From Candidatus Nitronereus thalassa (lineage in GTDB: Bacteria; Nitrospirota; Nitrospiria; Nitrospirales; UBA8639), in NCBI RefSeq assembly GCF_032191465.1, contig NZ_JAQOUE010000002.1:248001-312000 (forward strand): a DNA stretch of 64,000 bases. Direction: 5' to 3'. The stretch's first letter is position 1. Each line of letters begins with the position of its first letter. A program made the translations under genes and the position numbers. The notes below the pieces were generated by a model that saw nothing but the letters and a program-made list of their open reading frames with translations, did not search any database and had not been told where the DNA came from. Positions 47,346 through 52,229 of the stretch are shown here, one piece after another.

Positions 47346-47684
47346 TTAGGCCACCGCCGATTCAAAGGCTTCTTGCTCGGTGGCGTAGATGGGAACCAGG
47401 GAAGGAATATTGAGATTGTCCAATAAGGCTTTGACATGCCCCCGAGGCTGCACCCAACTCATTTTTCGTTGAAGCCCGGTAAACTGCACGTAGGCAAGCA
47501 CTAAAAAACCTAGTCCCGCACTATCAATAAAGGAAAGCGATTGGAGATTGATGACGAGATGGTCGTGTTCCGTTAAACAACATTGCTTCATGATGGCTTT
47601 GAAGTTCCATCGAGCAGCTGAATCCAACCGACCATGAAGGTCCACGACTGTAGCTTCTTTGTGGGCCCTGACTACAACTTCCAT
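47346..47684 (-). CDS. STAS-domain anti-sigma factor antagonist
   Basis: 112 residues forming one STAS domain: VVDLHGRLDSAARWNF, LVINLQSLSFIDSAGLGFLV and the helix after it. Ser55 in FIDSAGLG is the residue phosphorylated by anti-sigma kinases in SpoIIAA/RsbV proteins. A partner kinase or phosphatase is not present in the window, so the regulated process is unknown. Confidence 0.88.
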   Translation of the reverse strand: MEVVVRAHKEATVVDLHGRLDSAARWNFKAIMKQCCLTEHDHLVINLQSLSFIDSAGLGFLVLAYVQFTGLQRKMSWVQPRGHVKALLDNLNIPSLVPIYATEQEAFESAVA

Positions 47685-47870
47685 TTTGAAAATCTCTCCC
47701 CGTTGGGGTGTCTTATCGGTCGTAAGACTGGGAAACTTTACTAGGGAAATAACCCTAATAATTTTATCTTAAAATTTAACTCAACTCATTATCCCGTTTT
47801 AGTAGTATTGATCTCATTACAAACGATCTTTGTACTTCCCACCAGATCTTGTTAATATTTTCTTCGATTC

Positions 47871-49730
47871 ATGCCGCCAGCCATACACCCAGTTGATCTC
47901 ATCCAGGTTCTCCGTTTTAAACACCTTACCCCAGCTATTGTCTTTTTTACCTCACGCCGAGCCTGTGATGAAGCCATCGATAGCTTCGAACACCGCCACG
48001 TCCCTCTCCCCCCAAAACGAACGGCGGCCATTCAACAAGCCTTAGCTCCGATCATCACCGAATACCCGAGCATTGCCCAACACCCATTTATTCCCATCGT
48101 GGAACAGTACGGAGTGGCGGCTCATCACGCTGGACACCTGCCTTCTTGGAAAATTGCCATCGAGGAACTCATGCGAAAGGGATGCCTCGATGCCGTGTTT
48201 GCGACCACCACCCTGGCAGCGGGAGTAGATTTCCCTGCACGCACCGTTGTGGTGACCCAATCAAGTGTGCGCAAAGCTCGCGACTTCATGGACCTGACCG
48301 TGAGTGAGATTCAACAACTCGCGGGGCGCGGAGGTCGGCGAGGAAAAGATTTCGTTGGATTTGTCGTCATCACGCCCTCGCCCTATATCGACATCGGACA
48401 CTTGGCCAAGGGACTCACCGGAAATCCTGAACCCATCGACAGTCAATTCGTGATTTCCTATCCCATGGTCTTGAATTTACTCAAAGCCCACACCATCGAT
48501 CACATCCAACCGATTTTAGAAAAAAGTTTTGCGCAGTTTCAGCTCAACCAACGAGCCAATACCTTCGAAACGAAACTCGATGGCATAGAGCAACAGCTTA
48601 CAGATTTTGGTCAACGCGAATGCGCGGATTGGATTTCTCAATGGCAATCATTTGAACTCGCCAAACGACGTCGATCGCATCGGCACATCAAGGTTCCCTA
48701 CGAAACCCCTGAAGTGAATGCGCGCCTAGCCTTTTTGACACCAGGACGGGTCGTGGGACTCTCCAAGGAAAAAGCCATTGTACTTCGGCAATATCGGAGC
48801 AAGGGCCAGGCCCATGCCATGCTCACTGTCATCCGCAGCCGTGGACGGCTCGTCGAATATCCCGCAGGGTCGGTCACGGAAGTGTTTGATCAAGTCATTG
48901 ACATTGCCGAAACTCGCGCCTTTCCATGGTGCACAACTGCCAGCTTGGAACATGCCATCGAAGCAATCGACGATCTGCCAAGCCGGCTGCGCCCATTGCC
49001 CATTCGGGTGGAGGATGACGCCACCGACAATCCAATTCTCACCGAAACCTTGAGCGATGAATTTCCCTGTCCAGCCTGCCCTTCACGACAGGCCTGTCGG
49101 AAGGATCATCCACAAGCCATACGCCTGCGACAAGAAGAGCAACGACTCACGAAAACCATTCATACCCTTCGCACGGAACTCTGGCACAGCTTTCAACAGC
49201 ACATCGAAATCTTGCAAAAGTTTGGCTACCTCACCGCAAGCTGCCAACTCACCGCCGATGGCGAATGGGCGCGTTTCATTCGTATCAATCACTCATTGCT
49301 GCTCACCGAACTGATTCGCATGGATGCCTTCAATGGAATCGAGCCCGCTCTCTTAACCGGGGTGCTGGCGAGCATTGCCCATGACGACGACAGGCCAGGA
49401 TCCTTTCCACGACGAAGCACGGGACTCGGTACGGTTTTGAAACAAGTACGAACCGTGGCACATTCTCTGGCAGCATACGAAGATCCTCCCCTGCTGCGTT
49501 CCGACATTGCCGCTATTGCAGAGATTTGGGTGGGGGAACCCCACCTGCCATGGAGCAACTTGATCCGCATGACCTCCATGGCCGAAGGAGATATTTATCG
49601 CATTCTGGCCCGCACGTTGGAATATCTTTCGCAAGTGCATAGCCTCAAAGCTACGCATCCGAGCCTTGCCGAAATCGCCGACCAAGCCATGAACCTCATG
49701 CGGCGGGATGTATTAGAGGAATTACCGTAG
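47871..49730 (+). CDS. C-terminal half of a Ski2-like helicase (encoded first)
   Basis: 619 residues starting exactly at the second RecA-like domain: motif IV PAIVFFTSRRACDEAI (21-36), VAAHHAGHLPSWK (82-94), motif V ATTTLAAGVDFPARTVV (111-127) and motif VI QLAGRGGRRG (149-158). A Cys cluster CPACPSRQAC (Cys400, Cys403, Cys409) and the DSHCT-type helical C-terminus follow. Walker A and motif II are missing; they are on the next gene. An in-frame stop lies just upstream of the ATG, so the N-terminal half is absent, not missed. The protein needs the other half for ATP hydrolysis. Confidence 0.85.
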   Translation: MPPAIHPVDLIQVLRFKHLTPAIVFFTSRRACDEAIDSFEHRHVPLPPKRTAAIQQALAPIITEYPSIAQHPFIPIVEQYGVAAHHAGHLPSWKIAIEELMRKGCLDAVFATTTLAAGVDFPARTVVVTQSSVRKARDFMDLTVSEIQQLAGRGGRRGKDFVGFVVITPSPYIDIGHLAKGLTGNPEPIDSQFVISYPMVLNLLKAHTIDHIQPILEKSFAQFQLNQRANTFETKLDGIEQQLTDFGQRECADWISQWQSFELAKRRRSHRHIKVPYETPEVNARLAFLTPGRVVGLSKEKAIVLRQYRSKGQAHAMLTVIRSRGRLVEYPAGSVTEVFDQVIDIAETRAFPWCTTASLEHAIEAIDDLPSRLRPLPIRVEDDATDNPILTETLSDEFPCPACPSRQACRKDHPQAIRLRQEEQRLTKTIHTLRTELWHSFQQHIEILQKFGYLTASCQLTADGEWARFIRINHSLLLTELIRMDAFNGIEPALLTGVLASIAHDDDRPGSFPRRSTGLGTVLKQVRTVAHSLAAYEDPPLLRSDIAAIAEIWVGEPHLPWSNLIRMTSMAEGDIYRILARTLEYLSQVHSLKATHPSLAEIADQAMNLMRRDVLEELP

Positions 49731-49749
49731 AAAGCAGCGAACACACCAC

Positions 49750-50817
49750 ATGACCAACGACGAACTCTTACGACAACTCTACGCATTGCCAGTCAGGTTA
49801 TTGCACCGATTAGCGAAAGGGCGAATCCCACGCTATTTCCGGATGGGCAAACATCGAATTATCCAAACGTTGCTCGACCTTCCCCCCAACCAGCGGACCA
49901 AACTTACGGTAGAGGTGGAAGGGTTGACTCAAGAAGCCGCTCAACCTCGGCCACCCAGAACACGCCCAGTACGATCAACACCCAATGTCTCACCTCCAAA
50001 ACCCAATCCGCCCGCTCCACCCAAACACCACATATCTGAACATGCGCTTGAAACAGCTGTTACCACGGAAGCACTACTGGAAGGCATTGGTGTGCCAACG
50101 AAAAAAGAGTTCAAACCCGACCCTTGGCAAGAAGAAGCCATAGAACAATTAGCCGCCAACGATGTCATTGTCAGCGTACCGACCGGCAGTGGGAAAACCT
50201 ATGTGGCGGTCGAAGCCATGCGACGGGCTATTGAAGCAGACCGAACCGTAATTTACACCTCACCGCTCAAAGCCTTATCGAATACCAAGCTCACAGAGTT
50301 CTCCCATATTTTTGGGGCAGATCAGGTCGGCATTCTTACCGGTGATCGTCGCGACAATCCGCAAGCTCCCATCCTCATCATGACCACCGAGATCCTTCGC
50401 AACTTGCTGTACGATGCCGCTAGTGGAGAAATCGATTTGCGAATCGACACCCTAGGCTTGGTCATCTTGGACGAGTCGCAGTTTATCGCCGATCCCGAAC
50501 GCGGAGTCGTCTGGGAAGAAACGATCATCTTTTGCCCATCCCAAGCACGGCTTTTGTTACTCTCCGCCTCTATCGGCAACCCCGATGAAATCGCTGCCTG
50601 GATTACCTCTATCCGATCGACACCCTGTCACCTCATTCACCATCGCAATCGATCCGTCCCTCTTCGCGCCGCCTACCTCGATCCCTCAGGCAAACTCTCG
50701 CCTTTGTTCCGCACCAAAGACATCACCCACGGCAAGGGCTTCACCATCCACCCCGAAACCAAACGCCTCTTCACCGACTACGAACACCACACCACGGGGC
50801 CACGGTATAGAAGATAG
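49750..50817 (+). CDS. N-terminal half of a Ski2-like helicase (encoded second)
   Basis: 355 residues: a short basic N-terminal domain, a Pro-rich linker (about 66-95), then a DEAD/DEAH RecA-like domain with PTGSGKT at 144-150 (motif I), TSPLKALSNTK (170-180), DESQ at 241-244 (motif II) and SAS at 272-274 (motif III). It ends near where the second RecA domain should begin, with a non-conserved tail (HHTTGPRYRR). The missing part is the gene immediately upstream, 19 bases away. Motif II is DESQ rather than DEVH. A HEPN gene follows within 50 bases. Confidence 0.85.
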   Translation: MTNDELLRQLYALPVRLLHRLAKGRIPRYFRMGKHRIIQTLLDLPPNQRTKLTVEVEGLTQEAAQPRPPRTRPVRSTPNVSPPKPNPPAPPKHHISEHALETAVTTEALLEGIGVPTKKEFKPDPWQEEAIEQLAANDVIVSVPTGSGKTYVAVEAMRRAIEADRTVIYTSPLKALSNTKLTEFSHIFGADQVGILTGDRRDNPQAPILIMTTEILRNLLYDAASGEIDLRIDTLGLVILDESQFIADPERGVVWEETIIFCPSQARLLLLSASIGNPDEIAAWITSIRSTPCHLIHHRNRSVPLRAAYLDPSGKLSPLFRTKDITHGKGFTIHPETKRLFTDYEHHTTGPRYRR

Positions 50818-50864: not shown

Positions 50865-52229
50865 ATGGATACATTAAGACCCAAAACAGATTGCGCAGAA
50901 ATCCTGGGAAAAATTGTGGAAGCAAATGAGTATCTTGTACTTGAAGTTCGCCAAAAGTGGGGGCATTTTGGACAAGCTCCATTAACCCTAGCTATTTCAC
51001 TAGAAGAAACCCCGCCTGACAAGTTGAACGATCCGCTCAAACAATTAAGAGATTTCTTTCTAAGTTCTTCGCAATATAAGCAGTTAAATATTCGATCCTT
51101 ATTGGATCAAATATTAAACCAAGAACCCCATTTGAAGGCTTGCTGCCTTAATGCCAAGGGAATGGCTAAAGCTATTGAGGTATTAAAAGACTCGGCACTT
51201 AATCAGATGACCATGTCTTGGAATGAGGGTGGGAAAAAAGCGGCAATAGGATGGCTGACAGCAAAACTCTTTGAGCAGGAATACCAAGAGGAACATTATA
51301 TCCACCTCTATAATCTCCAACTCGATATTTCGCCAGTGCGGATTCAAACGATGAACATGGAACTTATTAAACTTGCAGACCATGAAATTCCTCAGCTTAT
51401 TGGGGAACAACCCCCCATAAGTTTTCTTCATAATTCTTCGACCGGCAATTGCTTTTTAAAGAATGTGAACAAAGGTCCAGAAGGTGAAGGAAAAAGTTTT
51501 GAGGATTCTTGGAAACTAGCTTGGGAAATAGTGCAGACCCTTATTTATCTGAGACATGGAACCGTTGATCTGGATTATGGAGCTATCTGGTACAGGCCAG
51601 ATTGGGTTAACCAAAAAAGAAGATTCGGAATTTCCATCAGAGGGTTGCCGAGGCAAGACCAACAAGCAAGTCCATACTACCTCCGACTTGAAGATCTTGA
51701 TACCTTCAAGAAGTACTCAATAGCCTATCAAAAAATACAACATCTATTGGCTGATACATCTTCGACACTGAGAAAAGCAACTGAACTTGCTGGAGACTTT
51801 TATGAAGGGCACGTAAGAAGAAATAAATTAGAGGATCAGCTTATCGACCTTACTATTTCCTTGGAAGCCTTGTTTTCCCCTGGTGACAGAATGGAGCTGG
51901 GATTTCGAATATCCCAACGAACTGCTACCCTTCTAGGCAAGACACCAAACGAACGAAAGGAAATTTTTCAATTTATCAAAGATTGCTACTCCAAACGATC
52001 TACCCTCGTCCATGGAGGAAGGCCACCATTAACTACTGCTGTAATTTATACTTTGGCTAATTATGTTAGAGAAGCCATTCTACGACTAATTACTTTACAA
52101 TTCAGAGAATATGGAAGTAAAAAAGAGGTTGAGAAAAACCTTGATGATTGCGCCTTTGATAATGAATTAAGGGAAAGGCTTCAGGCCATTTCAGACTACA
52201 ATGTTGCTATTCAAGAACTTGCGAGTTAA
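50865..52229 (+). CDS. HEPN-domain (ApeA-like) protein
   Basis: 454 residues, clearly more A+T-rich than its neighbours. The C-terminal part has an ApeA-like HEPN pattern: LIDLTISLEALFSPGDRMEL, GFRISQRTATLLGK and CYSKRSTLVHGG, where Arg378 and His383 form the RX4H RNase motif. The N-terminal 300 residues are unknown and may sense a trigger. HEPN proteins act in phage defence and toxin-antitoxin systems by cutting RNA. It directly follows the truncated helicase half and precedes a repeat cluster, which suggests acquisition. Confidence 0.75.
   Translation: MDTLRPKTDCAEILGKIVEANEYLVLEVRQKWGHFGQAPLTLAISLEETPPDKLNDPLKQLRDFFLSSSQYKQLNIRSLLDQILNQEPHLKACCLNAKGMAKAIEVLKDSALNQMTMSWNEGGKKAAIGWLTAKLFEQEYQEEHYIHLYNLQLDISPVRIQTMNMELIKLADHEIPQLIGEQPPISFLHNSSTGNCFLKNVNKGPEGEGKSFEDSWKLAWEIVQTLIYLRHGTVDLDYGAIWYRPDWVNQKRRFGISIRGLPRQDQQASPYYLRLEDLDTFKKYSIAYQKIQHLLADTSSTLRKATELAGDFYEGHVRRNKLEDQLIDLTISLEALFSPGDRMELGFRISQRTATLLGKTPNERKEIFQFIKDCYSKRSTLVHGGRPPLTTAVIYTLANYVREAILRLITLQFREYGSKKEVEKNLDDCAFDNELRERLQAISDYNVAIQELAS

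Follow-up and report, generated by a model that had tools for sequence, protein, structure and literature searches.

How can one helicase be encoded by two genes that stand in reversed order, and what has kept them so? The question is raised by a locus in the window, by which we mean the whole stretch of 64,000 nucleotides of Candidatus Nitronereus thalassa (order Nitrospirales) that was analysed. According to the original prediction, gene 1 begins at the second RecA-like domain and contains motifs IV-VI, a Cys cluster and a DSHCT end, and gene 2, which follows after 19 nt on the same strand, contains motifs I-III and stops before the second domain. Both descriptions were borne out, the former by Pfam and by alignment to PDB sequences, the latter by the coordinates (Table 1) and by alignment to SKI2W. 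Pfam places Helicase_C at residues 78-158 of gene 1 and DEAD at residues 125-279 of gene 2; the DSHCT domain of gene 1 scores 84.5 bits against a cut-off of 22.7. A search of NCBIfam returned helicase matches only below the cut-off. Gene 1 represents the half of a HelY/Ski2-like helicase that extends from RecA2 to DSHCT (the C-half), and gene 2 represents its RecA1 half (the N-half). Their reading frames differ and together they encode 974 aa, in agreement with the approximately 970 residues expected. The frame of gene 1 from stop to stop comprises 624 codons, which means that no N-terminal domain is concealed upstream; a missed upstream fusion is thereby excluded, as had been claimed.

Table 1. 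Positions in the window of the two genes, their domains and motifs, and the predicted promoter
Feature	Residues	Position	Strand	Basis
Sigma-70-like promoter TTGTAC - 17 nt - TAATAT, extended -10 TG, ending 12 nt before the C-half ATG		47829..47858	+	
Gene 1, C-half, 619 aa: RecA2 (motifs IV-VI), insertion region, Cys cluster, DSHCT end	1-619	47871..49730	+	Pfam, PDB sequence matches to Ski2/Mtr4, model
Motif V FATTTLAAGVDFPAR	C-half 110-124	48198..48242	+	
Motif VI QLAGRGGRR with arginine fingers	C-half 149-157	48315..48341	+	
Cys cluster CPACPSRQAC	C-half 400-409	49068..49097	+	
DSHCT domain	C-half 459-615	49245..49715	+	Pfam
Gene 2, N-half, 355 aa: new N-terminal domain, RecA1 (motifs I-III), end in the inter-domain linker	1-355	49750..50817	+	Pfam DEAD, PDB sequence matches, model
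N-terminal domain, short helices	N-half 1-45	49750..49884	+	Alignments, model
Walker A / motif I PTGSGKT	N-half 144-150	50179..50199	+	
Motif II DESQ, replacing DExH	N-half 241-244	50470..50481	+	
C-terminal linker helix; HPExKRLF conserved	N-half 335-347	50752..50790	+	Model

Where do the two halves meet? In phmmer comparisons against PDB sequences, residues 81-339 of gene 2 align with SKI2W 271-526 and residues 9-246 of gene 1 with SKI2W 556-796. AlphaFold2 modelled the core of the N-half with pLDDT >90 and the C-half with a mean pLDDT of 85.6. Residues 120-304 of the N-half model superimpose on Mtr4 147-325 (Z 24.7, 1.4 Å over 178 residues), and longer alignments extend to about Mtr4 354-361. 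The entire C-half model (1-619) matches Mtr4 359-1070 with Z 25.1 over 597 residues at an rmsd of 9.3 Å, and other Mtr4/Ski2 chains at 2.5-3.0 Å over 400-430 residues. As modelled, the halves tile Ski2/Mtr4 with a junction near Mtr4 residue 360. These alignment limits place the break in the linker between RecA1 and RecA2, a segment that varies in length among HelY and other relatives in our alignment. The N-half has a RecA1 domain with motifs I-III that is closest to Ski2/Mtr4, and the C-half has a RecA2 domain with motifs IV-VI; the two domains lie in separate ORFs throughout the order (four families), and motif II of the N-half is not DExH, for which reason we class the helicase as a derived variant rather than as a plain DExH member. 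A circular permutation at the domain boundary had also been proposed. This is correct for the order of the genes but not for the protein: the chains are separate, their stop/start frames are variable, and in the family f4 as well as in one further genome (G021) the genes are not linked, so there is no single chain with permuted segments.

The arrangement extends far beyond the window. Among 60 relatives the N-half was matched in 56 and the C-half in 57, and a draw of 296 genomes from the whole phylum contained strong orthologs of the C-half throughout the order and nowhere else, matches outside it being weak. Within the order, full-length C-half frames measure 619-730 codons and N-half frames about 280-520, sizes that leave no room for a fusion, whichever half came first. 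Coordinates for both halves were available from 55 genomes. In 50 of these the halves are neighbours on the same strand, separated by -4 to +195 nt (median 32.5), and in all 50 the C-half comes first; the permuted order is thus conserved in relatives, and its recurrence is far from chance. The stop/start overlaps or short gaps, seen in several families, suggest coupled translation of the halves. Co-translation is not essential, since the halves lie apart in the other five genomes: at different places in four genomes of f4, and at a distance of 7.2 kb in G021, where the intervening stretch (L056:3156-10343) includes an ORF of 1862 aa. In one f4 genome (G042) the placement of the halves is ambiguous; its contig ends in a palindrome, in which pieces of the N-half lie in forward and in inverted orientation (L059:16789-17166) and which was probably produced by the assembly. 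The halves are inherited together. Both are absent from two genomes, G116 (99% complete) and G311, and where a single half was found it lies at a contig end or the genome is fragmentary. There is one DSHCT protein per genome. Across the families, we found no conserved gene nearby that would point to a pathway.

The region upstream of the C-half shows some conservation of its own. A putative promoter directly before the C-half ATG is conserved in two families, and in the window its TAATAT element lies so close to the start codon that a leaderless, or nearly leaderless, transcript is implied. An element resembling an extended -10 occurs in 25 of 48 distinct upstream regions of the C-half versus 0 of 45 of the N-half, counted with a pattern that was picked after inspection of the upstream sequences. 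It precedes the C-half directly in many genomes outside the glgC-linked family, the only family in which glgC lies directly upstream and in which the C-half starts inside the 3' end of glgC with an overlap of about 26 nt. This overlap is kept in several genomes of that family (for example at L156:9136-10785), to which the genome with a contig of 4,317,083 bases belongs. Divergent from the C-half gene, a small ORF at 47346-47684 (-) resembles a STAS/anti-sigma antagonist and is kept in three compared neighbourhoods. Directly downstream of the pair lies a gene of 454 aa at 50865-52229 (+). It matches nothing in Pfam or NCBIfam, and none of the other neighbourhoods that we compared contains a relative; by eye only, its C-terminal part is reminiscent of HEPN/Apea-type proteins.

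The motifs of the ATP site are intact and distributed over the two chains. Across the order, the N-half conserves motifs I, Ia, Ib and III, and the C-half conserves motifs IV, V and VI. In comparison with 43-45 single-gene relatives, P144-T145, G148-K149, D241-E242 and S272-A273 of the N-half and Q149, R153 and R156 of the C-half (43 relatives for the latter) are invariant, and Q..GR.GRR is found in 60 of 68 distinct C-half sequences, incomplete ones included. Beyond what the original prediction had described, the arrangement is ancestral to the order and is accompanied by two changes in gene 2. The first concerns motif II, which reads DESQ or DEAQ in every one of the 18 split genomes checked, whereas the 20 single-gene relatives all have DExH; without the His of DExH the coupling of ATP hydrolysis to unwinding may be different or weaker. 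The second change is a conserved N-terminal stretch of about 45 residues, absent from HelY, from the single-gene form of the same class (L054) and from f4, for which the model predicts helices at 3-11, 15-22, 28-31 and 36-42. A Pfam search with this domain yielded no convincing match, and a likeness to Rho-N/SAP-type helix-extension-helix folds, which we considered, was unsupported.

Single-gene forms, whose existence in relatives had been suggested as a check, were indeed found in other phyla and in one genome of the same class. All 80 relatives retrieved in one collection scan, from Methylomirabilota/Rokubacteria, Prochlorococcus, Chloroflexota, Dormibacter, Planctomycetota and Actinomycetota, are single ORFs in normal order; the query was an N-domain alignment and the ranking favours single-gene relatives. 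Four of the 80 seem different at first sight, the cause being alignments that run beyond the start codon. Split forms outside the phylum were sought separately in two phyla, and these directed searches found no clear case in 95 Methylomirabilota and 121 Chloroflexota genomes, where the N-domain lies in long frames, mostly of at least 730 codons; the few short ones are mostly at contig edges. G190 (L054), a genome that belongs to the same class but not to the order, carries a single-gene form with an N-domain that is 42% identical, and this form groups with Methylomirabilota; the gene (L054:1439-3592) is HelY-like without the insertion region and looks like a separate lineage or a transfer. In another genome of the class, a 964-codon frame (L055:1155-4046) encodes a Ski2-like helicase that belongs to a different type. 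All 18 split rows of a 38-row tree fall into a single clade with SH-aLRT 100, the stem of which is long (2.97 changes per column); the deeper branching of this tree is weak and long-branch joins were flagged. From most other orders of the phylum the gene is missing.

Different explanations can be weighed against these data. Nothing but the odd gene order favours an assembly artefact or a strain-specific rearrangement of a normal single gene, and independently assembled genomes of several families share the arrangement, several of them on single contigs of chromosome size (one of 4,317,083 bases). An artefact, which the original prediction had seen as a possibility, is excluded by these genomes. 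The order observed is just what would remain if a gene was duplicated in tandem and the outer halves were then lost, and the locus might thus be a decaying relic of which both halves are being lost. Pairwise dN/dS, counted only for pairs without synonymous saturation, is however 0.08-0.15 for the N-half and 0.08-0.09 for the C-half, which speaks against relaxed selection in either. The motifs and termini are conserved, as is the predicted promoter, the arrangement persists across the order, and the frameshifts, lost motifs and relaxed selection of a pseudogene are not what we see. Decay is therefore highly improbable; of the duplication residue suggested earlier, duplication fits as the origin, and the idea of decay falls, both halves being maintained.

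Maintained halves need not be partners. The C-half might serve as an RNA-binding or adaptor protein and the N-half as an ATPase with another RecA2 partner; the new domain of the N-half, the change of its motif II to DE[SA]Q and the unlinked halves of f4 would fit such separate jobs. However, the C-half retains motifs IV, V and VI, including arginine fingers for which no use is known in the absence of a RecA1, and the halves are co-inherited and jointly absent, so that we think it improbable that they have parted ways. It is also conceivable, though rather unlikely, that the same two-subunit helicase obtained its gene order by translocation of a fragment, or that an already split pair was acquired from an unsampled lineage. 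The long stem of the split clade and the absence of the gene from most other orders of the phylum could be read in this way. On the other hand, translocation to an adjacent upstream spot, on the same strand and with the break at the domain seam, would be a more special event than a duplication and two deletions, and the lack of a clear split form among the Methylomirabilota and Chloroflexota genomes argues against acquisition. For excision and reintegration, also proposed originally, no support was found.

We thus consider it very likely that both genes encode subunits of one HelY/Ski2-like 3'-5' RNA helicase, a heterodimer that was split once in the ancestor of the order, most likely via tandem duplication and loss of the outer halves. 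In SF2 helicases ATP is bound by RecA1 and the site is completed by the arginine fingers of RecA2. The N-half would contribute RecA1, whose Walker A and B motifs bind ATP, and the C-half would contribute RecA2, with motif VI and its arginine fingers, as well as the insertion region and the DSHCT end; as a heterodimer they would restore the usual fold, interrupted by a chain break in the linker between the domains. As the ATP site lies between RecA1 and RecA2, neither protein alone should unwind RNA, and judged from the sequences the enzyme very probably works only when both proteins assemble. A working two-subunit helicase, one of the readings offered in the original prediction, is well supported by the conservation across the order, by purifying selection, by motifs that complement each other and by the fact that the halves are present or absent together. 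The HelY enzyme of M. smegmatis acts as a 3'-5' helicase, and its ATPase is activated by RNA (Uson et al. 2015, as cited in PMC8931766). The split enzyme might have a role that involves RNA or the ribosome. As to its origin, a single gene may have been duplicated in tandem, copy 1 then losing its N-terminal and copy 2 its C-terminal half; this would give the order, strand and spacing of the halves in few steps. An intermediate with a duplicated gene was not found among the genomes searched, and the duplication route therefore rests on parsimony.

In conclusion, a gene of a known helicase family has undergone a real and old fission, the halves of which have been maintained in reversed order. 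Neither a split nor a permuted Ski2-like helicase was described in the open-access literature that we searched, also in combination with Nitrospira. SF2 helicase motors are treated as single chains, since both of their RecA domains have to move in concert around a single ATP. A split between these domains throughout an order, together with the loss of DExH in the same lineage, provides a natural test of how tight this tether has to be and how inter-domain coupling can be rewired. We see about an even chance that the pair is an obligate two-subunit SF2 motor whose ATP site is completed in trans across the order; the change from DExH to DE[SA]Q would then compensate at the inter-domain site, the added N-terminal domain might steer assembly or RNA loading, and activity might be switched by subunit association. 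A gene fission in reversed order that has long been kept also bears on the origin of circular permutations. Automatic annotation would tend to label the two genes as unrelated helicase fragments.

Several known systems come close to the pair. HelY, the actinobacterial Ski2-like RNA helicase of M. smegmatis and Streptomyces, is collinear over its full length with the halves once these are rearranged into normal order, and the collinearity covers the insertion region, the Cys cluster (HPCHGC at the position of CPACPSRQAC) and the DSHCT end; HelY differs in being one polypeptide, in its DExH motif II and in lacking the new N-terminal domain. The single-gene relatives in Methylomirabilota/Rokubacteria, Chloroflexota, Prochlorococcus and L054 are homologous over both halves but are single ORFs in N-to-C order with DExH. 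The eukaryotic DSHCT helicases Mtr4, Ski2 and FRH fold like both halves and, unlike the pair, are DExH single chains of about 1000 residues. In Suv3-type helicases motif II is DExQ. The N-half shares with them the Gln at position four of motif II and is also matched by the Suv3 DEXQ domain model (E 5e-9), although the general DEAD model scores higher and the best full-length relatives are Ski2/Mtr4. The reverse gyrase of Nanoarchaeum equitans is likewise a naturally split enzyme that contains an SF2 helicase module; there the break lies between the helicase and topoisomerase modules, whereas in the split helicase it separates RecA1 from RecA2.
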